NCBI GenBank assembly: GCA_947458455.1
Contig: CANGYJ010000009.1
Location: 124,001-188,000, forward strand
DNA length: 64,000 bases
From: Verrucomicrobiaceae bacterium
GTDB taxonomy: Bacteria > Verrucomicrobiota > Verrucomicrobiia > Verrucomicrobiales > Verrucomicrobiaceae
Reading direction: 5' to 3'
Below are positions 31,112-58,560 of the stretch, in pieces. Within the stretch, counting starts at the first letter, position 1; every line of letters begins with the position of its first letter. A model generated the notes under the pieces. It had not been told where the DNA came from, made no database searches, and saw only the letters and a list, made by a program, of their open reading frames with translations. A program made the position numbers and the translations under genes.

Positions 31112-31195
31112 GGTGGTGGACGGACAGAATCTCACAAACGCGGGATGCGGTCAGGTTCTACATTCCACGTCATCCTGAATTCGCATGGGATGGAG

Positions 31196-31258
31196 CGGTG
31201 GAGTAGTGGAGTGATGGAAATCCAATCCCCACTACTCCACTACTCCACTACTCCCCCC
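31196..31258. repeat. Dispersed GGAGTAGTGG inverted repeat
   Basis: ggagtagtggagtgatgg is followed by ccactactccactactcc and a C-run. The halves can pair, with extra tandem copies of the 9-bp unit actccacta. It lies about 8 bp past the yraN stop, on the sense side of that gene. Confidence 0.75.
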
Positions 31259-36141: not shown

Positions 36142-37920
36142 ATGCTTCCCCTCATTGATCAAATCCTCGCCACCGCTGGCTGCGGTGACTCGCCTGCTGT
36201 CCGGCAGGCGGTTGAGGATGCCTGCTTCAACCAGACCTCCTTTGTCGATGCTGTGCTGGATTGCGAAGGCGTCCGCGAGCGGGATTTCCTCATGGCACTG
36301 GCCAAAACGCTCACGCTGCCGTGGTGGGAACCCAAAGAGGACGACAAGCCCGCCGAGGCTGGCATCCGCCGCCTGCTGCCTGCGGAGATCGCCTTGAGGC
36401 ATCGTTTGCTGCCGCTGTTCACCGAGCAGGCCGAAGGCGGCGAGCTCGAGGACACACCGCGCGCGCTGCACATCGCCACCTTTGATCCGCTGAACCTCGT
36501 GGCGCATCAACGCGTGGCCGCGAGCCTTTCGATGCCCGTCGTATGGCATGTGGGACCTCGCACGCGCATCGTCGAGGGCCTCCAAAAGCTCTACGGCCTC
36601 GGCGCAGATACGTTTGAGAAGATCCTGCGCGGCCGGGCCGATTGGGGTTCCGAAGATCTGAAGGACGAAGTCACCGTGCTCGATGAACCCGAGGACGAAG
36701 AAGCCAGCGTGGTGCGCTTTGTGAATCAAATCATCCGCCGTGGCCTCGATCAACGCGCCACGGACATTCATGTGGAGCCACAGCACGACCGCCTGCGCAT
36801 CCGCTACCGTATTGATGGCCGTCTCGAAGAGCTGCCGGTGCCGGAAAACATCAAATCCCTCCAGGCGTCCGTCATCGCCCGCCTGAAGATCATGGCGCGA
36901 CTCGACATCGCGGAGAAGCGCCTGCCTCAAGACGGCCGCATCAATCTCGAACTCGACGGCACGCCCATCGACGTCCGTGTCGCCACCATTCCCAGCGTGG
37001 AAGGCGAAAGCATCAGCCTCCGTCTCCTCGCCCAGCAGCAGGTCACACTCAATCGTCTCGGCCTCACCGATACGATTCGTCCCGTCATCGAGGAACTGCT
37101 GCGCCTACCCAACGGCATCATCCTCATCACCGGCCCCACCGGCAGCGGTAAATCGACCTCGCTCTACGCCTTCCTCACCGAGCTGAATCAGACCCATCGC
37201 CGCATCGTCACCATTGAAGACCCGGTGGAATACAAAATGCCCGGCGTCGTGCAAATCGCTGTGAAGCCCGAGATCGGCCTCACCTTTGCCGCCGGCCTGC
37301 GCAGCATTCTGCGTGGCGATCCGAACGTCGTCATGATCGGGGAAATGCGCGACCTCGAGACCACCGAGATCGCCGTGCGTGCCGCGTTGACCGGTCACCT
37401 CGTCTTGAGCACGCTGCACACGAATGACGCCATCGGCGGCATCTCGCGTCTCATTGATATGGGCGTCGAGCCCTTCCTCGTCAGCAGCGCCGTGCGGGCC
37501 TTCTTTGCCCAGCGCCTCGTGAGAAAGCTCTGCCCGCATTGCAAAGCGCCCGCCGAGGTCGAGGAGAGCTACTTGCGGTCCATCGGCTTCCCGGTGCAGG
37601 CACGCGGAAAAATCATGCGCGGCACCGGCTGCGAAGCCTGCCGTGGCAGCGGCTTCCAGGGCCGTGTCTCGATTTATGAAGTCGTTCTCGTCACGCATGC
37701 CCTGCAGCATCTCATCAACAGCCGTGCGCATCCCGCCGAGTTCATGAAGCAGGCTCTCAAAGACGGCTACATCCCCATGCGCGGCTACGGCTTCCAAAAA
37801 GTCCTCTCCGGCGAAACCACCATCGAAGAGGTCCTCTCCGTCACCGCTGCCGCCGAACGCCACGCGCCCTCTCCAGCCACTCCTGTCGCCGCCGCACTTC
37901 CCACACGCCTCGCCGCCTAA
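36142..37920 (+). CDS. gspE: Type II secretion/pseudopilus assembly ATPase GspE
   Basis: 592 residues. An N-terminal GspE_N-like domain (1-150) is followed by the hexameric secretion ATPase: RATDIHVEP with the Asp-box region, Walker A GPTGSGKST near 330, Walker B LRGDPNVVMIGEMRD near 390-404, the GHLVLSTLHTND His box, and a zinc site made of CPHC (about 463) and CEAC (about 496). It powers pseudopilus growth at the inner membrane. It is the first gene of a co-directional set running to 45422. Confidence 0.95.
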   Translation: MLPLIDQILATAGCGDSPAVRQAVEDACFNQTSFVDAVLDCEGVRERDFLMALAKTLTLPWWEPKEDDKPAEAGIRRLLPAEIALRHRLLPLFTEQAEGGELEDTPRALHIATFDPLNLVAHQRVAASLSMPVVWHVGPRTRIVEGLQKLYGLGADTFEKILRGRADWGSEDLKDEVTVLDEPEDEEASVVRFVNQIIRRGLDQRATDIHVEPQHDRLRIRYRIDGRLEELPVPENIKSLQASVIARLKIMARLDIAEKRLPQDGRINLELDGTPIDVRVATIPSVEGESISLRLLAQQQVTLNRLGLTDTIRPVIEELLRLPNGIILITGPTGSGKSTSLYAFLTELNQTHRRIVTIEDPVEYKMPGVVQIAVKPEIGLTFAAGLRSILRGDPNVVMIGEMRDLETTEIAVRAALTGHLVLSTLHTNDAIGGISRLIDMGVEPFLVSSAVRAFFAQRLVRKLCPHCKAPAEVEESYLRSIGFPVQARGKIMRGTGCEACRGSGFQGRVSIYEVVLVTHALQHLINSRAHPAEFMKQALKDGYIPMRGYGFQKVLSGETTIEEVLSVTAAAERHAPSPATPVAAALPTRLAA

Positions 37921-37923
37921 CCC

Positions 37924-37957
37924 AATTTTCAGTTTTCAGTTTCCAATTCTCAATTTG
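37924..37957. repeat. AT-rich tandem repeat at the gspE-gspF junction
   Basis: attttcagttttcagtttcc and a following ttccaattctcaattt form a short AT-rich tandem in a GC-rich operon. It begins 3 bp after the gspE stop and ends at the gspF start. Confidence 0.5.
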
Positions 37958-37959
37958 CA

Positions 37960-39195
37960 ATGCCCGCCTTCACCTACAGCGCCCAAGGTCCCTCCGGTCT
38001 CATCACCGGCGAGATCGCTGCGGCTGATCGTGCCGAGGCATTCAGCATTTTGGGACGCAAAAAAATCCAGCCCATCAAGCTCGAAGCCGCTTCCGAGGTC
38101 AAAACCACCTCGAAAGCCAAAACCAAAGCCTCCGCCGAGCCCATCACGAGCGGCCCCATCAAGCTCAATCTCGCCCAGGTCGTCCTCTTCATCGAAGAAC
38201 TCGCCGATCTCGTCAGCGCCGGCATCCAGCTCGAGCCCGCGCTCGCCACGATGGAGCGGCGTCGCGAGCTCTCCGGCATCAAAACCCTCGCCACCGTGCT
38301 GCGTGGCAAGGTGCGCGATGGCATGTCCTTCTCGAAAGCCGTCGCCTCGACGAGCCCCAGCTTTGGCAATCTCTTCTGCGCCCTCGTTTCCGCCGGCGAG
38401 GCCAGCGGCTCGATGAGCACCATCTTGAAGCGCCAGGCCGCCTACATGCGTTCGCTCGCCGCGCTGCGCTCCAAGGTGCTCGCGGCCATGCTGTATCCCG
38501 CGTTCCTCGTCGTCGCCGCCGTCGGCGTGTCGCTGATGTTTGTGCTCTACCTCATCCCGAAGCTCACTGAGATGCTCGACAGCACCGGTGGCAAGCTACC
38601 CTTCCTCGCGCAGGTCATGCTGAAGGCCAGCGAGGTCTTCAAATCGACATGGTGGATGTTCCTGATCGCAGGCATCGCCGGCTTCATCCTCTTCCGCGCC
38701 TGGCTCGCCCGTCCTGAGTCCGCCATCCCGTGGGCACGCTTCAAACTGCGCCTGCCGCTCTTCGGTGCCATCTTCAAGGCCCGCTTCTACGTCCAGTTCC
38801 TCGAAACGATGGCCAATCTCCTCGGCAACGGCCTCACCATCGTTCAGTCGATGCAGCTCACCCATCAGGCCATCGAGAATCCGCATCTCCAGCGCGAGTT
38901 CGAAGCCGTGCAGCGCCACGTCGGCGAAGGCGTGAGCCTTTCTCGCGCCCTCGACCGCAGCGGCCAGTTCCCGCCGCTGCTGCTCGACATGGTCAATGTC
39001 GGCGAACAGACCGGCGACATGCCCGCCGCCCTTTCCCGCGCCGCCGAACGCTTCGACCGCGAGCTCAGCAAGAAGATCGACACCCTCGCCGCCTGCATCC
39101 AGCCCCTCATCGTCTTCATCATGGCCGGCATGGTCGGCTTCATGGCCTACATCATGATGAGCACCATCTTCGAAACCATCAGCTCAATCAAATAA
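37960..39195 (+). CDS. gspF: Type II secretion inner-membrane platform protein GspF
   Basis: 411 residues. An N-terminal FTYSAQGPSGLITGEIAAADRAEA segment and two copies of the T2SSF domain (about 70-195 and 275-400) are each followed by membrane helices (AMLYPAFLVVAAVGVSLMFV, PLIVFIMAGMVGFMAYI). The usual GxxLxxAL and GExxG patterns appear (SAGEASGSMSTIL, NVGEQTGDMPAAL). It links the ATPase to the pseudopilus. A Lys/Thr-rich linker (45-60) is unusual but minor. Confidence 0.95.
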   Translation: MPAFTYSAQGPSGLITGEIAAADRAEAFSILGRKKIQPIKLEAASEVKTTSKAKTKASAEPITSGPIKLNLAQVVLFIEELADLVSAGIQLEPALATMERRRELSGIKTLATVLRGKVRDGMSFSKAVASTSPSFGNLFCALVSAGEASGSMSTILKRQAAYMRSLAALRSKVLAAMLYPAFLVVAAVGVSLMFVLYLIPKLTEMLDSTGGKLPFLAQVMLKASEVFKSTWWMFLIAGIAGFILFRAWLARPESAIPWARFKLRLPLFGAIFKARFYVQFLETMANLLGNGLTIVQSMQLTHQAIENPHLQREFEAVQRHVGEGVSLSRALDRSGQFPPLLLDMVNVGEQTGDMPAALSRAAERFDRELSKKIDTLAACIQPLIVFIMAGMVGFMAYIMMSTIFETISSIK

Positions 39196-39289
39196 GCCCT
39201 CCGCATCGTCCTCGTCCTCCTACTCGAACTCGTCCTCGATCCTTCCGCCCTCCGTCCACCACTCCAAAACTCCACCCCTCCACCTCACC

Positions 39290-39694
39290 ATGAAACACAC
39301 CCGCATCCACATCCCGCATCGTCGCGACGCGTTTACCCTCGTCGAGATGCTCCTCGTCCTCGGCATCATCGGCCTGCTCGTCGGCGTCGGCGTCGTCAGC
39401 TTTGGCGGCGTCCTCGAAGGCGGCAAGAACAAGACCGCGCTTGGCCACATCAACCAGATCCAGTCCGCCGTCCGCGCTTACGAAGTCGATTCGATGAAGC
39501 TGCCCACCACCTCGCAGGGCATCGGCATCCTCGTCGAGAAAGGCAAGCTCAAGAAGCTCCCCGTCGATCCCTGGGGCAACGCCTACCACTACCGCAAGCC
39601 CGGCACCAAGGACAAAGGCGGCTTCGACATCTACTCCGCCGGTCCCGATGGCATCGCCGACAACGCGGACGACGTGGGAAGCTGGCAGCTTTGA
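39290..39694 (+). CDS. gspG: Major pseudopilin GspG
   Basis: 134 residues. A 14-residue basic leader ends in RRDA before FTLVEMLLVLGIIG, so the prepilin peptidase site is A-F rather than the usual G-F, with Glu at mature position 5. The C-terminal pseudopilin domain shows TTSQGIGIL, DPWGNAYHYRKPG and a closing GFDIYSAGPDGIADNADDVG calcium loop, typical of GspG. It forms the pseudopilus shaft. The 94 bp before it is a pyrimidine-rich cgtcctc tandem. Confidence 0.92.
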   Translation: MKHTRIHIPHRRDAFTLVEMLLVLGIIGLLVGVGVVSFGGVLEGGKNKTALGHINQIQSAVRAYEVDSMKLPTTSQGIGILVEKGKLKKLPVDPWGNAYHYRKPGTKDKGGFDIYSAGPDGIADNADDVGSWQL

Positions 39695-39828
39695 TAAATG
39701 ACGAATGAGGAATTCAGAATGACGAATGAACTTCCAATGACCGAAGGCCGAATGGCGAGCGCCTCCGCTCGTCATTCAAGCTTCGTCATTCATTCCTCAT
39801 TCGCCATTCGCCATTGGTCATTCCCGCG
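39694..39828. repeat. Dispersed inverted repeat, family R2, between gspG and gspH
   Basis: atgacgaatgaggaattcag and gaatgacgaatgaa on the left are mirrored by tcgtcattcattcctcattc and catttggtcattc-like text on the right. It begins at the gspG stop codon and supplies the start codon and most of the leader of the next gene. Confidence 0.85.
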
Positions 39829-40258
39829 CCGCGGTTTCACCCTCATCGAAATCCTCGTCGTCCTCAGCATCATCTCTCTGATGCTCGGCATCTCGATCAT
39901 CAGCATCTCCGGCATCAAAGACGAAGATCGCCTCCGCCGTGCCGTGGCGATGATCGAAACCACGGCTCGCGACAACCTCCTCCAAGCCGTCAAAACGCAG
40001 CAACTCGTCACCATGCCACTCGCCGCCGGTTCGTTTGGCACCGGCTCTGATTTCAGCGGCATGCTCAAGATTCGCCGAGCCGGCGAACGCGGCTTCCGCG
40101 AGCCGAAACGCGGCGAAACCTGGGAATTCAGCCCCACCGGCATCTGCGAGCCCATCGAGGTCCGCCTCTCCGGCCCCGGCGGCACCGTCGAACTCGCCTT
40201 CGATGCCCTCACCGCCTGCGCCAAACGCAAAAGCCTCGATTTCAACGCCAAGTCATGA
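39698..40258 (+). CDS. GspH-like minor pseudopilin with repeat-encoded leader
   Basis: 186 residues. The cleavage site is RRG-FTLIEILVVLSIISLM with Glu at mature position 5, then SISGIKDEDRLRRAVAMIETTARDNLL, the usual pseudopilin helix. The leader is 46 residues, far longer than the 6-15 normal for the family, and is translated almost wholly from the R2 repeat, including its ATG. The start is therefore uncertain; no better in-frame start lies near the cleavage site. Ends in ATGA overlap with the next gene. Confidence 0.8.
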   Translation: MTNEEFRMTNELPMTEGRMASASARHSSFVIHSSFAIRHWSFPRRGFTLIEILVVLSIISLMLGISIISISGIKDEDRLRRAVAMIETTARDNLLQAVKTQQLVTMPLAAGSFGTGSDFSGMLKIRRAGERGFREPKRGETWEFSPTGICEPIEVRLSGPGGTVELAFDALTACAKRKSLDFNAKS

Positions 40259-40788
40259 AGCACACGAGCACAACTTGGAGCATCAAACCTCGCGCCAGCG
40301 TCCTGGAGTGCGCCGGCCCTCCGGCGCTTTCGGGCGTCGATTGGCCTGCGGAAAGCTCCAGAGGGCTGGAGCACTCCAAAACGCTCACGCGCCATTCGTC
40401 CGCTCAGGGTTTCGCCCTGCTCGAAATCCTCCTCGCCATCGCCCTCTTCGCGCTCGTCTCCGTCGGCATGACGCAGGCCATCGACGGCATCGCCAAAACG
40501 ACCACCGCGGCACGTCAGGAAGCCCAGGTGCTCCGCGTGCTCGAATCCGTGCTCGCGGAGGTGGCGCACCAGCCGGAGTTCAAGGCCAACAAGATCGACT
40601 TCCCCAAAACTGCCGATCACATCGACGCCAGCGCCACCATCGAAAAGGTCCGCCTCTTCACCCGCGACAAAGCAGAGCTCGACCACGTCTTCCGCGTCCG
40701 CGCCGAAGCGTGGATCAGCGACGGCCTCAGCCGCCGCATCGTCCGCACCATGGAAACCTATGTGTATTCACCCAACAGCCCGATCTAA
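40255..40788 (+). CDS. GspI-like minor pseudopilin with repeat-encoded leader
   Basis: 177 residues. The prepilin site is SAQG-FALLEILLAIALFALVSVGM, followed by the helix QAIDGIAKTTTAARQEAQVLRVLESVLAEV seen in GspI-type proteins. The leader is 52 residues and contains a dispersed repeat (40299-40383) read in frame. Since the leader is removed by prepilin peptidase, the insertion may be harmless. Overlaps the next gene by 29 bp. Confidence 0.75.
   Translation: MKHTSTTWSIKPRASVLECAGPPALSGVDWPAESSRGLEHSKTLTRHSSAQGFALLEILLAIALFALVSVGMTQAIDGIAKTTTAARQEAQVLRVLESVLAEVAHQPEFKANKIDFPKTADHIDASATIEKVRLFTRDKAELDHVFRVRAEAWISDGLSRRIVRTMETYVYSPNSPI
40299..40383. repeat. Dispersed inverted repeat inside the GspI-like leader
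   Basis: tcctggagtgcgccggccct at the left pairs with agggctggagcactcca at the right. The gccggccctccggcgc core is itself palindromic. It lies in frame within the leader coding region. Confidence 0.7.
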
Positions 40789-41440
40789 CGCATCCGGCTT
40801 CACGCTGCTGGAAATCCTGCTGGCACTGGTCCTCATCGGCCTGGTGCTCTCAGGCGTTTTCAGCGTCGCGGATGGGGCCATGCAGCTCGGAAAATCGATG
40901 GGACAGGCTCGCGTGGCCGAAACACGCATCTCGAACTTCGTCACGCAATGGCGCGACTACTTTGAAACCGTGCCTCCCGGCATCAGCCTCGCCGCTGGAG
41001 CCGAAAAAGCCGCCCGTGGCTCCTCCGGCAATCTTTTCATCCTCGGCAGCCAGATGCCCTTCGTGTGGGATCAACGCCTCAAGATGGCCGACGCCGTCGA
41101 ATTCGGCCTCGTGCGTGCTCCCGGGCCTGAAAAGACCCTCAACCTCGTCGTGCGTCATTTGAAGCGTCCGCTCGATGCCCGCCGCGACGACCAGTTCGAT
41201 ACCCTCGCCGAGCTTCCGATCCTCGAAAACCTCAAGCAAATGCAGTGGCAGTTCTACAGCCCCGAAGACAACAAGTGGTTCATCGACTGGGACCCCAAGA
41301 AGCGCCCCAAACCGCCCCTCTTCATCAAACTCCGCTTCGCCTTCCTCAACGACACGAGGGAGCATGAGTACACCTTTTGGGTGGCGGGTGATTTGAGTGG
41401 CCAGATCGCGCAGGTGCCTGCGGCGCCGGTTCAACAATGA
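40760..41440 (+). CDS. GspJ-like minor pseudopilin
   Basis: 226 residues with a short 13-residue leader and the site ASG-FTLLEILLALVLIGLVLSGVF. The C-terminal domain (residues 60-215) is beta-rich, with MQWQFYSPEDNKWFIDWDPKKRP typical of GspJ/PulJ, where the sequence compares composed strings. It would join the tip complex with the H, I and K proteins. It starts inside the previous gene and its stop overlaps the next start. Confidence 0.75.
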   Translation: MCIHPTARSNASGFTLLEILLALVLIGLVLSGVFSVADGAMQLGKSMGQARVAETRISNFVTQWRDYFETVPPGISLAAGAEKAARGSSGNLFILGSQMPFVWDQRLKMADAVEFGLVRAPGPEKTLNLVVRHLKRPLDARRDDQFDTLAELPILENLKQMQWQFYSPEDNKWFIDWDPKKRPKPPLFIKLRFAFLNDTREHEYTFWVAGDLSGQIAQVPAAPVQQ

Positions 41441-42921
41441 CGAATGACGAATTCAGAATGACGAATGAAGCTCCAATGACCGAAACAACGCCAACGAGCC
41501 GCCAGGCCCGTAGGCCGGGTGTGTTCGGCGCGGAAGACCTTCGTCAGCATCTCACGCTCTCCTCGCCGAATCACCCGGCTGGTTTGGGAGCATCCGCAGA
41601 CCACGACGTCTTCGTCATCGCCCCCTCACCTAACCTCTCCCCCGATGAACGCTTTATCAGCCAACGAGAATCATTGGCGGGGGAGAGGGACCTGAAAGCG
41701 CACTCCCTCTCCCCCGTCAACGACTCACAACCACAGGGCAGGATTCCATCGGGGGAGAGGGCTGGGGTGAGGGGCACAGCCAGCGATCTCACCGAGGCAG
41801 ACTGCATCTTTTCATCGCTCGAACACGCCACACAGCCGGGTAGTTCGGCGAAACAATCTTCTCCTGCTAACGACGCCGCATCCGCCGAACACACCCGGCC
41901 TACGACTCGACATTCGGATTTCGTCATTCCTTCGTCATTCGGATTTACTCATTCGTCATTCCCCAAGGGCTTCGTCATTCCTTCGTCATTCGCCATTCGT
42001 CATTCGTCATTCCAGCGCGGTTCTGCCTTGATCGCTGTCTTTTGGATGATCTTCGCGCTGGGCATGGTCCTCTTCGCCGCCACGAAGGCGCTGCATGGCG
42101 ACACCGAATACACGCGCATGATGCGCGGGCGCATTTACGCGAAGCGCTACGCGGAAACCGGCCTCGAACTGGCCCGCCATCCGGCGATGCAGCAGGACGA
42201 TCCGCTGCTGCACTTCAGCAGCGACATCGGCGGTGGCTTTGACGTGACGCTGAAAACCGAAGAGGCCCGCCTCAACATCAACTTCCTCCTCCAAAGCGGC
42301 GACAAGGTGCTGCTGCGCCGTCTGTTCACCCGCTGGGGCTTCAAGCCGGAGTTCACCACCGCGCTCTGCGATGCGCTGAAGGACTGGGTGGATGCCGATA
42401 GCAACGCCAGCCTCAACGGCGCGGAAAAACGCGAGTATCAAAAAGCCGGCTTCGAAGGCATGCCCTTCAATCAACCCTTCAAAGAGGTCGAGGACATGCT
42501 CCACGTGCGCGGCATGGACATCGTGAACGCCGAGCGCCCCGACTGGCGTGAGTGGTTCACCGTCTATGGCGATGGCCGCATCGACATCAATGACACCAGC
42601 GCCGAGATCATCTCCCTGCTCGGCGATGTGCCGATGGAACGCGTGCAGCCGATTCTGACGATGCGAAACGGCCGCGATGGCCAGCATCGCACGCGGGACG
42701 ATGTGCGCCTCGGCAGCGTGCCGCAGGTGGCGCAGATGCTCGGCGTCTTCAATCGCCAGACCGTGGCGCAGCTCACGCAGTGGATTCAATTTTCCGGCCC
42801 CATCCGTCGCATCGAAAGCGTCGGCTACCTCGGGCCCCTGAAACGCAAACTCATCCTCATCACGCAGGGCGGACAGGCCGTCTGGCGTGGTGAAATCCCA
42901 ATTCATGGCCAAAACTCGTAA
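41437..42921 (+). CDS. gspK: GspK-like tip pseudopilin with a 195-residue repeat-derived leader
   Basis: 494 residues. The prepilin-like site is QRG-SALIAVFWMIFALGMVLF at residues 195-196; after the helix come RIYAKRYAETGLELAR, EEARLNINFLL and DALKDWVDADSNASLNGAEK, which are typical of GspK, with a helix-hairpin-helix-like C-terminus. The first 195 residues are translated from nested dispersed repeats (41438-42013) and have no protein character. A functional start nearer the helix cannot be located, as only alternative codons are available. The pseudopilus tip role is inferred from family and order. Confidence 0.8.
   Translation: MTNDEFRMTNEAPMTETTPTSRQARRPGVFGAEDLRQHLTLSSPNHPAGLGASADHDVFVIAPSPNLSPDERFISQRESLAGERDLKAHSLSPVNDSQPQGRIPSGERAGVRGTASDLTEADCIFSSLEHATQPGSSAKQSSPANDAASAEHTRPTTRHSDFVIPSSFGFTHSSFPKGFVIPSSFAIRHSSFQRGSALIAVFWMIFALGMVLFAATKALHGDTEYTRMMRGRIYAKRYAETGLELARHPAMQQDDPLLHFSSDIGGGFDVTLKTEEARLNINFLLQSGDKVLLRRLFTRWGFKPEFTTALCDALKDWVDADSNASLNGAEKREYQKAGFEGMPFNQPFKEVEDMLHVRGMDIVNAERPDWREWFTVYGDGRIDINDTSAEIISLLGDVPMERVQPILTMRNGRDGQHRTRDDVRLGSVPQVAQMLGVFNRQTVAQLTQWIQFSGPIRRIESVGYLGPLKRKLILITQGGQAVWRGEIPIHGQNS
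41438..42013. repeat. Nested dispersed repeats (R2 around R12 around R6) in the GspK leader
   Basis: The outer arms are gaatgacgaatgaa-type text (41438-41480) and cattcgtcattc-type text (about 41914-42013). Inside lie perfect 22-bp arms at 41509-41530 and 41883-41904 (taggccgggtgtgttcggcg and complement). Inside those are ccctcacc...cctctccccc at 41622-41646 and its mirror gggggagagg...ggtgagggg at 41748-41774, with extra inner copies. This looks like successive insertion of different elements into one another. Confidence 0.85.
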
Positions 42922-44131
42922 ACCCACCTCCGAGCTACTGCTCCCCGGTGCCTCCGTCTGGCAAAGCTGGACCGGCATCGATGGCGAGCTGTGCCAACAG
43001 AGCGGCGAATTCACCGCCGATGGCAGCCGCTTTGGCAAAGACGCCACGCGCCGCGTGCTCGCCCTGCCTTCCACGCACTTCTGGGTGCTGCCCGCCTGGC
43101 TCAAAGGCGAGACCGAGCACCTCCGCAGCATGGCGCTGCTCCATCTCGAACGCATGGGCGTGAAAACAAACGAGGACGAGGCCAGCGTGCAGGTGCGCAG
43201 CATCGCCGGCAAGGAAGGCGCGAACCTCGCCCGCATCCTCGCACTCAAAGATCAGCCCGTGCCGCTGAGTGATACGACCTACCTTCCTGATGAGGTCACG
43301 CATCACTCGCTGTGCTACCCGATGGTGCAAAACAGCATCACGCTCTTCCGCGAACTCGGCCGTCTCGTCGTCGCCATCACCACTGGCTCGCAGCTCATTT
43401 ACTGCGCTCCACTATCCTCCACGCGTCTCGATGACCATGCGCTCGCCGAGCTGAACAACATCTGCCTCCAGCTCAGCTTTCAGGGCGTGCTCGCCCGCCT
43501 CGAAAGCATCGTGCTATGGATCGACGAGGGCGACCTCGGCAAGATCCAGCGCATCACCGGCCTCGCGCCCTTCCGCTGTGAAATGCCCGCGCCCACCATG
43601 CCGGAGCGCGGTGCGAGCCTGCTCATGCCGGAGGAGCTCGTGCTCGAACGTCAGCGCCAGGGCACACGCTCACGCACGCGCTTCCTCGCGATGAGCTTTG
43701 GCGCTGCTGCTGCCGCCGCCATCGCTCTCGTGGCCACGCTCACCGCCTTCGCTTTGAAGGAGCGGAACATGCTGCGTGAAAAAGTGGCCGAGCTGATGCC
43801 GCGTGCCTCACGCGTCATGGATCACAAGCGTGCGTGGATGGAGGCCGCGCCCGCCGTCGATCGTTCCGCGTGGCCGCAGCAGATGCTCATGCATTGCATG
43901 GAGCCGGAATCGTCCAAAGAAGTCCTGCTCACGCATTGGGAATGGACGCCCGAGATGCTTTGCCTCATGGGCCGCATGCCCAGCGCCTCTCTCGCGCTCG
44001 AATACACCCAGGCGCTGAAAGAAAGCGAAGCGCTCACCCACTTCGGCATCGATGGTCCGCCACCGCTCATCGCCGGTGATCAAAGCGCCACCTTTGAAAT
44101 GAAAGGAGGAGTCGCCCATGAAGAAGAGTGA
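42905..44131 (+). CDS. GspL-like inner-membrane assembly protein
   Basis: 408 residues from the ATG at 42905. A cytoplasmic N-terminal domain of about 245 residues (ALPSTHFWVLPAWLKGETEH, RELGRLVVAITTGSQLIYC) resembles the actin-like part of GspL/PilM. One membrane helix (about 255-280, AAAAAAIALVATLTAFAL) precedes a coiled segment and a periplasmic domain. It would couple GspE/F to the pseudopilins. Identification rests on order and architecture. Overlaps gspK and the next gene. Confidence 0.65.
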   Translation: MAKTRKPTSELLLPGASVWQSWTGIDGELCQQSGEFTADGSRFGKDATRRVLALPSTHFWVLPAWLKGETEHLRSMALLHLERMGVKTNEDEASVQVRSIAGKEGANLARILALKDQPVPLSDTTYLPDEVTHHSLCYPMVQNSITLFRELGRLVVAITTGSQLIYCAPLSSTRLDDHALAELNNICLQLSFQGVLARLESIVLWIDEGDLGKIQRITGLAPFRCEMPAPTMPERGASLLMPEELVLERQRQGTRSRTRFLAMSFGAAAAAAIALVATLTAFALKERNMLREKVAELMPRASRVMDHKRAWMEAAPAVDRSAWPQQMLMHCMEPESSKEVLLTHWEWTPEMLCLMGRMPSASLALEYTQALKESEALTHFGIDGPPPLIAGDQSATFEMKGGVAHEEE

Positions 44132-44699
44132 AAAAGTCCTCCTCGGCATCTTCGCCGTCATCTTCATCGGCGTCGCCCTCATCGGCGGCGGCGCATTCGC
44201 CTTCCGCGCCTACTTCGAGGTCCAGGACGAGGTCGAGCTACTGCGGGGTCGCCTCGGCTCGATGAACATCGCCGTTTCTCAAGGCACCGAGTGGGCTGAA
44301 AAGAACACCTGGCTTGAAGAAAACGCCCCCGGCTTCACCAGCAACAAGGACGCTAGCGCCAAGCTGCTCGAAACCGTCACCGCCGCCGCGCAACAGCACG
44401 ATCTCACCATCGGCGGCACCGAACTCCTCGAACACACCCGCGCTATCGGCACCGATGGCTTGCCCGTCGAAGACGAAGAGGAGAGCCACTTCGAGAAAGC
44501 CAGCATCAAGACCACCCTCACCGGCGTCAGCGAGCAGGCCTTTTTTACCTGGCTGCACACGCTGCAGCAGCCGAAGAGCTTCATCGGCATCACCCGCCTC
44601 CAGATCAACCCCGCCGGCTCGAACAAGACCATCAACGCCGAGGTCGAGTTCACCCAGTTCTACCACGAGAAGAGCGTGCCGAAGGTCACCAAGAATTGA
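44118..44699 (+). CDS. GspM/PilO-like inner-membrane protein
   Basis: 193 residues. A membrane helix at 8-30 (LLGIFAVIFIGVALIGGGAFAF), a coiled segment, then a ferredoxin-like domain with TGVSEQAFFTWLHTLQQPKSFIGITRLQINPAG, characteristic of PilO/GspM. It is the expected partner of the preceding GspL-like protein. The start overlaps the upstream gene by 14 bp, so translation is coupled. Confidence 0.65.
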   Translation: MKKSEKVLLGIFAVIFIGVALIGGGAFAFRAYFEVQDEVELLRGRLGSMNIAVSQGTEWAEKNTWLEENAPGFTSNKDASAKLLETVTAAAQQHDLTIGGTELLEHTRAIGTDGLPVEDEEESHFEKASIKTTLTGVSEQAFFTWLHTLQQPKSFIGITRLQINPAGSNKTINAEVEFTQFYHEKSVPKVTKN

Positions 44700-44731
44700 T
44701 TTATGATTTACGATCTACGATTTATGATTTG
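44699..44731. repeat. Short ATTTATGATTTACGATCTACG repeat (R4) at the operon's last junction
   Basis: tttatgatttacgatctacg is followed by atttatgattt directly after the GspM stop. It provides two possible start codons (44696 TTG and 44703 ATG) of the last gene. Confidence 0.6.
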
Positions 44732-45422
44732 GGCCGTCATTGCGGTCAATCTGGTCCATGCGGTCCCCGCCGCAGAACCCGTCGAGTTCCCCAAACTCGA
44801 AGCCTACGCCTTCCTCTGGCAGCGCAGCCTTTTCACCACCAAGGACCTCCCCGCGCCCGATGCGCCTGCCGGACCGAGCTTCGCAGACAACCTCAGCCTC
44901 TCCGGCGTGTATGAGCTTCAAGGAGAGGTCGTCGCGCTCATCGTGGACAAAACGACCTCGCAGGTCTTCCAGGCCAAAATCGGCTCCGAGAACGAGATCG
45001 GCGTCAAAGTGCGAAAGATCGACGGCGAGATCACCAGCGCCAAAATCCGCGTGCAGCTCCAAAAAGGCGATCAAGTCGGCTGGGTGACCCTTTCCGATGG
45101 CATCGGTGCCCCTTCTGAAACCATCGCGCCCGCTGGCGTCCCTGCCGTGGCCCAACCCGGCCTGCAAACCCGCCAGATGCCCGCTCCCGCCGCGGCTTCC
45201 GCCGGTCTTTTGCTGCCTCCGAATGCCCCCGCCGCTCTCCGCGGAGACATCCCGCAGATCCCCACCATCACGCCCGAATCCACGCCGCCGATGAACCGCC
45301 GCCTTTCGATGCCCGCGCCTTCCCCGACGATCCCCCAAAGCCCGCCCCCCAGCGCCCCGCCACCTCCCGTCGCCGTGCCACCCGCCCAGCAAGTCGATGG
45401 CATCCCGCTGCCACCGCCGTGA
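44703..45422 (+). CDS. Exported proline-rich protein ending the secretion operon (possible GspC-like adapter)
   Basis: 239 residues. MIYDLRFMIWAVIAVNLVHAVPAA acts as a signal peptide, but its first residues come from the R4 repeat. Residues 45-115 (LSGVYELQGEVVALIVDKTT, KVRKIDGEITSAKIRVQLQKGD) form a small beta-domain similar in plan to the homology region of GspC/PilP, and the last 90 residues are Pro/Ala-rich, ending in PLPPP. A role linking the assembly platform to a secretin is an inference from position. Confidence 0.5.
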   Translation: MIYDLRFMIWAVIAVNLVHAVPAAEPVEFPKLEAYAFLWQRSLFTTKDLPAPDAPAGPSFADNLSLSGVYELQGEVVALIVDKTTSQVFQAKIGSENEIGVKVRKIDGEITSAKIRVQLQKGDQVGWVTLSDGIGAPSETIAPAGVPAVAQPGLQTRQMPAPAAASAGLLLPPNAPAALRGDIPQIPTITPESTPPMNRRLSMPAPSPTIPQSPPPSAPPPPVAVPPAQQVDGIPLPPP

Positions 45423-45491
45423 GGGGCTATCTTGTCGGCCCGCTGGTGCTTTTGGATATTATTGATTAGGCCAACCTCATTATGAATCGGT

Positions 45492-58344: not shown

Positions 58345-58560
58345 CGATGCAGTCGAAGAGCATTTGGCACCGGCAAAGCGGGCACCGTACGGTGTAGGCG
58401 CATTTGCCAAAATGCGTTGCGGCGTTCTCGTGCTGGCGAACAAGCCTACGAGCATGCCTCGCAGCTTTCGACTGCCTCGTCACGACTCAGGATGCCCGAT
58501 TCTATCGAAAACCGCGCCGGAGGCATTCGTCATTCGGTTTTCGTCATTCGTCATTTCTTC
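58345..58560. repeat. Repeat-filled gap
   Basis: About 216 bp with no gene. The right end (about 58530-58556) holds R2-type text (gtcattcggttttcgtcatt, cgtcatttcttc) starting about 8 bp after the SNF2 gene stop on its sense strand. The left part (tgcgttgcggcgttctcgtg, acgagcatgcctcg) looks like another dispersed element. Confidence 0.6.

Follow-up and report, generated by a model that had tools for sequence, protein, structure and literature searches.

Intergenic repeats as an apparent source of translated leaders in a type II secretion operon of a Prosthecobacter-like bacterium

How can repeats that usually lie between genes come to occupy most junctions of an operon, and do they provide its genes with start codons and N-terminal leaders? 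The question is raised by a type II secretion operon of a Verrucomicrobiaceae bacterium (assembly GCA_947458455.1), found at positions 36142-45422 of the window, by which we mean the 64,000-nt stretch of one contig analysed here; the genome searched comprises 5.35 Mb in 28 contigs. Our results indicate that the repeats in the leaders are real, that comparison with relatives supports this reading best at GspI, and that they extend beyond this operon: in Prosthecobacter-like bacteria, intergenic repeats appear to have become the translated front ends of exported proteins repeatedly, among them the leaders of three parts of the secretion machinery, which suggests how repeats without a coding role may give rise to export signals. 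Pfam matches and gene order identify gspE, F, G, H, I, J and K, two genes in the gspL and gspM positions, and a last gene. Homologues of T2SSE, T2SSF, T2SSG and T2SSK stand in type II secretion order, which is kept in relatives, and the products of gspG, H, I and J match N_methyl, the prepilin cleavage motif. The closest named relatives of gspF come from Prosthecobacter sp. and Verrucomicrobiaceae metagenome-assembled genomes (MAGs), a few of them labelled Akkermansia muciniphila, and the host genus is likely Prosthecobacter.

Three of the nine junctions (I/J, K/L and L/M) are gene overlaps at which no repeat was seen; the other six (E/F, F/G, G/H, the leader of gspI, J/K, and gspM with the last gene) carry repeats, as a preliminary description of this DNA had claimed, the case for F/G being weak. 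Among 500 shuffles, a 7-nt periodicity as good as the observed one was reached once at E/F, twice for the left arm of the J/K repeat, and never at G/H, in the J/K right arm or before the last gene. The weakest case is F/G (46 of 500), whose CACTCCAAAACTCC motif is also found before ATGs elsewhere in the fetched DNA, and the repeat in the gspI leader (372 of 500) is palindromic without forming an array of heptamers. Searching the genome with six patterns returned 46 matches for the core of the AATGACG element, 21 for GGAGTGC..GCGCTTTC, 18 for GTAGGCCGGGTG, 21 for GGGGGAGAGGG..GAGGGG, 13 for ATGATTTACG and 3 for TTTTCAG, counts that include the window's own copies and some overlapping matches. 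Reversed-pattern controls gave no match in the genome for any of the six, and on the strength of shuffles and controls we rejected chance repeats. CACTCCA-type heptamer stretches resembling the one before gspG also lie just 5' of ATGs at 31192-31215 of the window (minus strand) and at L218 (L labels denote fetched loci, and G000 is the window's own genome).

The preliminary description gave each junction a repeat of its own kind, but those at G/H and J/K belong to one family, element A, an inverted repeat of AATGACG heptamers (49 nt, 94% alike). Within the loop of the J/K copy lie further, nested repeats of about 400 nt, which L064, L061 and L065 do not have. With 37 copies in the genome, 0.06 would be expected in a stretch of 9.3 kb, where two were found (P 0.002, for a locus chosen after the fact).

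The coordinates place the start codons of gspH, gspK and the last gene within repeat sequence, as had been claimed. The leader lengths of 46, 52 and 195 residues also hold, for GspH, GspI and GspK respectively; the 52 residues belong to GspI, whose start lies outside the repeat and overlaps the gspH stop codon. The last gene has no pilin motif, and its repeat-derived N-terminus looks like a Sec signal peptide by eye. Nor does the usual length of about 6-15 residues fit GspH, whose leaders in the genus are often of about 28. Across the window GspK junction, stops number 0 in frame against 7 and 4 in the other frames (chance about 0.004).

For comparison among relatives, we retrieved the operon from the same-genus genomes in which GspG matched well (38 of 47, some with contigs that end early). 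GspI leaders range from 11 to 227 residues: 15 genomes have 12, four have 11 (with 14 as an alternative in one of them), and the others with an ATG have 20-227. To our knowledge, 195 to 227 residues is far longer than the leader of any pilin. In 37 of the 38 genomes gspI can be read without interruption from an in-frame ATG at the upstream stop to the cleavage site. The 18 junctions longer than 40 nt (a nineteenth, L094, was dropped before counting) comprise 1042 in-frame codons and not one stop, whereas the other two frames contain 30 and 23. Because of this frame retention, the long GspI leaders are very probably translated.

These counts bear directly on the possibility that the long N-termini are annotation artefacts, the repeats being untranslated spacers and initiation taking place near the cleavage site from an unusual codon. 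Repetitive extragenic palindromes (REPs) at predicted N-termini may indeed be extragenic, as Di Nocera 2013 warns (PMC3733652), and the GspK inserts of L085, L088 and L089 are plainly non-coding, the start there being local. However, the in-frame ATG, GTG or TTG closest to the cleavage site in the window is 28 (GspH), 52 (GspI) and 85 (GspK) residues away, so that initiation at non-repeat codons close to the site looks unlikely. Together with the frame retention at GspI, this led us to reject the artefact as the main explanation, and we regard it as very unlikely.

The elements that lengthen the GspI leader differ among the window's neighbours. The window and L066 share the GGAGTGC palindrome, L061 has TTTATGA heptamers, L062 AATTCGG-type heptamers, and L081 (57 nt) and L065 a GTAG-bearing palindrome, with L080 (leader of 12 residues) being a near-empty counterpart of L081 (31 residues). 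A single shared ancestral insert was rejected, as close species carry different elements. How many separate gains took place is uncertain, since a tree built from GspE, F and L requires 16 changes of junction-length class but only 3 of a simple short/long state. The same turnover is relevant to a second alternative, that the repeats are kept for regulation, their hairpins or heptamers tuning the coupling of cistrons or mRNA stability in the operon. Stable hairpins do form at G/H (z -5.4) and in the gspI leader (z -6.1), and they are compatible with the earlier suggestion that the repeats set translation levels, but no more than that. Against regulation, the element at a given junction differs or is missing in close species (L064, like L061, L062 and L065, carries another than the one in the window and L066), and 15 genomes have a GspI leader of merely 12 residues. 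We therefore hold regulation to be a rather unlikely reason for their presence, and translation of the repeats as leaders to be the better account.

GspK and GspH follow the rule seen at GspI in part only. Mature GspK measures 297-299 residues where complete, with junctions of 32-581 nt, and comparisons with near-empty sites are given by L068 and L073 at GspH and by L064/L061/L065 and the window at GspK. The J/K junction of L064 has two heptamers more than that of the window, and its third ATG is the in-frame one. Several points weigh against a general conversion of repeats into leaders. An ATG that stands at the upstream stop and is in frame and open is present in only 22 of 31 GspK junctions longer than 40 nt and in only 15 of 38 GspH cases (L076 was dropped); as both were counted only if open, the lack of in-frame stops in these 22 and 15 is no proof by itself. 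The GspK inserts of L085, L088 and L089 (277-382 nt) contain 8-12 in-frame stops, so that translation must begin 12-15 residues before the site; insertion of non-coding DNA thus occurs too, and L082 and L096 fit neither pattern clearly. At GspI, L094 breaks the rule, its gspH and gspI matches being fragmentary. Furthermore, the sample consists mostly of draft MAGs from related, and hence not independent, species, and some nodes of the GspE/F/L tree have support near zero.

If leaders are translated and then discarded, their sequence might be expected to be looser than that of the mature protein. GspH leaders differ by 32 silent and 39 amino-acid changes (45% silent), and the first 60 codons of mature GspH by 140 and 49 (74%); for GspI the figures are 23 and 20 (53%) in leaders and 83 and 12 (87%) in the first 60 mature codons. 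Random single-base changes would be silent in 23-26%, and the compared pairs are not independent. Free drift of the leaders was dropped on recount, the silent share being about twice the random one. The leaders are thus looser than the mature protein yet probably not neutral, and a silent share between random change and the mature protein speaks for translation as well. This constraint could mean that the long leaders are themselves under selection for some function, such as targeting or pilin interactions. Besides the overall silent share, the GspI leaders of L086 and L088 differ by 15 silent and 5 amino-acid changes, and the GspH leaders of L066, L061 and L063 differ pairwise by silent changes only (4 in total). 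On the other hand, mature parts are far more constrained (33 and 1 for L086/L088), the comparison is biased towards silent changes by amino-acid alignment and mutational bias, and many congeners manage with short leaders. We consider a selected function of this kind highly improbable. The idea that insertions are tolerated in a cleavable leader is supported by the turnover in length, the frame retention at GspI and the looser leader codons.

Translation from the first ATG, cleavage by prepilin peptidase and the mode of spread are inferred, and the following scheme would accommodate them. Small dispersed palindromic and heptamer repeats would settle at junctions of co-directional genes. Several starts in the operon are tied to the upstream stop, by ATGA overlap or within a few bases, and ATGA-overlapping gene pairs are translationally coupled (PMC6728339, PMC10666635); DNA landing between such a start and the cleavage site would thus become translated leader. 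Inserts would survive if in frame and stop-free, because prepilin peptidase would remove the leader, whose sequence is less critical than that of the mature part. Overall, we find it quite probable that junction repeats become translated, cleavable leaders and are kept when in frame and stop-free.

The heptamers may lend themselves to this particularly well. Since 7 is not a multiple of 3, a tandem 7-mer encodes the same heptapeptide in all three frames, as our computation confirmed. A CGTCATT array reads as stop-free (RHSSFVI)n, and an AATGACG array reads as MTNDE-stop-R, with a stop and an ATG every 21 nt; a GAATTCAG unit turns the in-frame stop into F, yielding MTNDEFRMTNE as in GspK of the window. 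Stop-free arrays are given by 69% of all 7-mers, and arrays with both stop and ATG by 4.5%. One palindrome could hence give an upstream stop, a downstream start and an open leader, and a right arm in which R and H are replaced could form the hydrophobic core of a Sec-type signal. We tentatively propose, as a possibility somewhat short of even likelihood, that the AATGACG inverted-repeat element is a portable, frame-indifferent donor of N-termini, providing the upstream stop, the downstream start and (RHSSFVI)n as a hydrophilic prepilin leader or, once R and H codons are lost, as a Sec signal peptide, so that Prosthecobacter export signals would arise repeatedly from one non-coding repeat family.

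Across the genome, 36 copies of element A were examined, leaving out the gspK copy, whose flanking DNA is shared with gspH. Thirty-two lie between tandem genes, one between divergent and one between convergent genes, and two were not placeable; 32 of 34 placeable copies in tandem compares with 30 of 46 window gene pairs (p 0.0025), with genes around the element called by our own unvalidated codon-usage script, a further point against us, and called gene ends far from the element in three of the 32 (L013, L205, L213). Element A is in frame, start codon included, in the N-termini of a parvulin (L016), an HtrA-like PDZ protease (L206), a PPC-domain protein (L214), a probable SnoaL-like lipoprotein (L210) and an unknown protein (L009); in a sulfatase (L201) the element is represented by its right arm alone, directly preceded by the start. 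Including gspH and gspK, N-terminal capture judged by eye concerns 8 of 33 tandem copies. Starts inside the element at L017, L024, L030, L205 and L207 were judged ordinary, with a plausible start near or beyond the element end, and that of the ResB-like L006 was assigned neither way. Twelve matches to Y1_Tnp, the REP-type tyrosine transposase family, are candidate mobilisers in this genome, although no link to element A was made.

Two of these families were followed in relatives, with signal peptides judged by eye and hydropathy. For the parvulin-type peptidyl-prolyl isomerase (L016:666-1532, minus strand, G000 C11; homologues L225-L245), read at the 21 best of 30 fetched loci, the signal peptide derives from element A in 5 (G000, G014, G016, G039 and G031, the last being distant from the other four in the operon tree, as far as they are present there), and the remaining 16 have unrelated N-termini, mostly ordinary signal peptides. 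For the HtrA-like protease (L206:1493-2641, G000 C6; loci L255-L284), 20 of 30 loci have an in-frame element A N-terminal to the signal core and 10 lack it, by eye; in L256 and L257 a later ATG would yield an ordinary signal peptide. The tolerance ascribed earlier to cleaved pilin leaders is not specific to pilins, as Sec-type signal peptides carry the same repeats. Among relatives, the last gene of the operon has a signal peptide of CAGTTCT heptamers in L094 and L096, and in L071 and L082 a GGAGTGC palindrome in frame ahead of the signal core.

The arm of element A keeps R and H in the two pilins and is hydrophilic there, whereas in six Sec-type signals R and H are mostly lost (best 12-residue hydropathy of 0.9-1.0 vs 1.8-2.9). 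The six Sec-captured arms are more hydrophobic than the best frame of 18 uncaptured elements, out of about 25 (p 0.014), or than 103 pooled arm-frames (7e-5), in a test that is partly circular, as it was by arms of this kind that the captured genes had been identified. Of 288 genomes sampled from the phylum, 28 (in 19 of 151 genera) contain AATGACG arrays; the reversed control pattern matches 7 others, so that arrays built of different heptamers exist as well.

Rickettsia palindromic elements (RPEs) are likewise dispersed palindromes in frame within protein-coding genes (PMC10969869, PMC3733652). A palindromic repeat in frame inside a coding gene, with the host protein conserved around it, is what we find, a likeness in the way they work; in contrast to RPEs, however, the present inserts occupy N-terminal leaders of the cleavable kind and provide start codons, heptamer arrays make up the main element, and the phylum is unrelated. 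The TAACTGA heptamers of Beggiatoaceae, cyanobacteria and Bacteroidetes form 7-nt arrays that in one genome mostly precede start codons, and two close strains differ by indels that are mostly multiples of 7 nt (PMC4679880). Multi-copy 7-nt tandem units, mostly intergenic and near start codons, are found here too, but among the units AATGACG, TTTATGA/TTTACGA and TTTTCAG that we met, TAACTGA itself was not. Further heptamer repeats are the cyanobacterial short tandemly repeated repetitive (STRR) sequences and tRNA-Leu intron heptamer hairpins. Whereas TAACTGA and STRR are described as mostly intergenic direct repeats, the arrays here are inverted, overlap stop and start codons and are in some cases probably translated.

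GTAG REPs, found in the Planctomycetes-Verrucomicrobia-Chlamydiae (PVC) group, are palindromes between unidirectional or convergent genes, often tandem ones, with ends able to supply a stop codon (PMC3733652). GTAG stands near one end of the L081/L065 GspI insert and CGTAGG at the ends of the nested GspK pair; unlike a GTAG REP, a 20-40 bp hairpin whose stem has GTAG at its foot, that pair has arms 352 nt apart, and no GTAG end was seen in element A. Miniature inverted-repeat transposable elements (MITEs), such as the QMITEs of Coxiella, are non-autonomous inverted repeats yielding in-frame fusions (PMC5896051); inverted arms are present here, and no target duplication is evident by eye in L080/L081. 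Type 4 pilins of Streptococcus sanguinis have very long leaders that vary in length before the cleavage site, no repeat origin being described in the part of the report cited (PMC10191384). A limited literature search found no description of repeats as prepilin leaders or signal peptides. The apparent conversion of repeat to leader is a variant of known in-frame palindromes such as RPEs and of intergenic heptamers, new in that the leaders are cleavable and start codons are supplied. If true, it would offer a concrete route from non-coding repeats to new protein N-termini, with donors, insert-free species and likely functional products in one genus. It would also suggest that cleavable leaders behave much like intergenic DNA that gets translated and that 7-nt arrays read alike whatever the frame, and gene starts called within repeats may then be real.

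Table 1. Genes and repeats of the type II secretion operon, in window positions
Feature	Position	Strand	Evidence
gspE (T2SSE ATPase)	36142..37920	+	Pfam T2SSE 5.8e-127
E/F junction, degenerate TTTTCAG heptamer array	37926..37955	+	7-nt periodicity; 3 genome matches with <=3 mismatches, own included; control 0
gspF	37960..39195	+	Pfam T2SSF
F/G junction, CACTCCAAAACTCC heptamer-like stretch directly 5' of gspG start	39257..39284	+	similar stretches elsewhere; periodicity not significant
gspG, leader of 14 residues	39290..39694	+	Pfam T2SSG and N_methyl
Element A copy 1, inverted repeat of AATGACG heptamers; source of gspH start and most of its leader	39697..39828	+	repeat comparison; hairpin z -5.4
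gspH, leader of 46 residues (39, 33 or 28 from internal ATGs), then FTLIE cleavage motif	39698..40258	+	N_methyl
gspI, leader of 52 residues, start overlapping gspH stop (ATGA)	40255..40788	+	N_methyl, one scan just below Pfam cut-off, another above
Palindrome GGAGTGC..GCGCTTTC within gspI leader	40302..40380	+	21 genome matches, control 0; hairpin z -6.1
gspJ, start within gspI, short leader, no repeat seen there	40760..41440	+	N_methyl
Element A copy 2, left arm; source of gspJ stop (TGA) and gspK start (ATG)	41436..41484	+	94% to G/H copy
gspK, leader of 195 residues	41437..42921	+	Pfam T2SSK_1st
Nested insert in element A loop, inverted CGTAGGCCGGGTGTGTTCGGCG pair around CCCTCACC/CTCTCCCC repeat (41621-41774)	41509..41904	+	absent from L064, L061, L065
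Element A copy 2, right arm(s); CGTCATT heptamers, open in frame, RHSSFVI-type peptide up to cleavage site	41907..42015	+	
gspL position	42908..44131	+	no Pfam match; same order in relatives whose contig extends that far
gspM position	44118..44699	+	no Pfam match; gene order
M/last-gene junction, GATTTAT/GATTTAC heptamer array; source of last gene's start codon and first residues	44698..44730	+	
Last gene, conserved protein, Sec-type signal peptide (by eye), repeat-derived N-terminus	44703..45422	+	no Pfam match

Heptamers were also noticed at other places in this genome. The leader of a gspG paralogue (G000 C13, about 45017-45439, within L215 and read in L188) includes heptamers of the TTTACGA type (NHKSKIVNHKS), the window has one more array, of CATTCGT heptamers, at 58524-58555, and a long perfect AATGACG tandem array at G000 C12:146278-146363 accounts for ten overlapping pattern matches.

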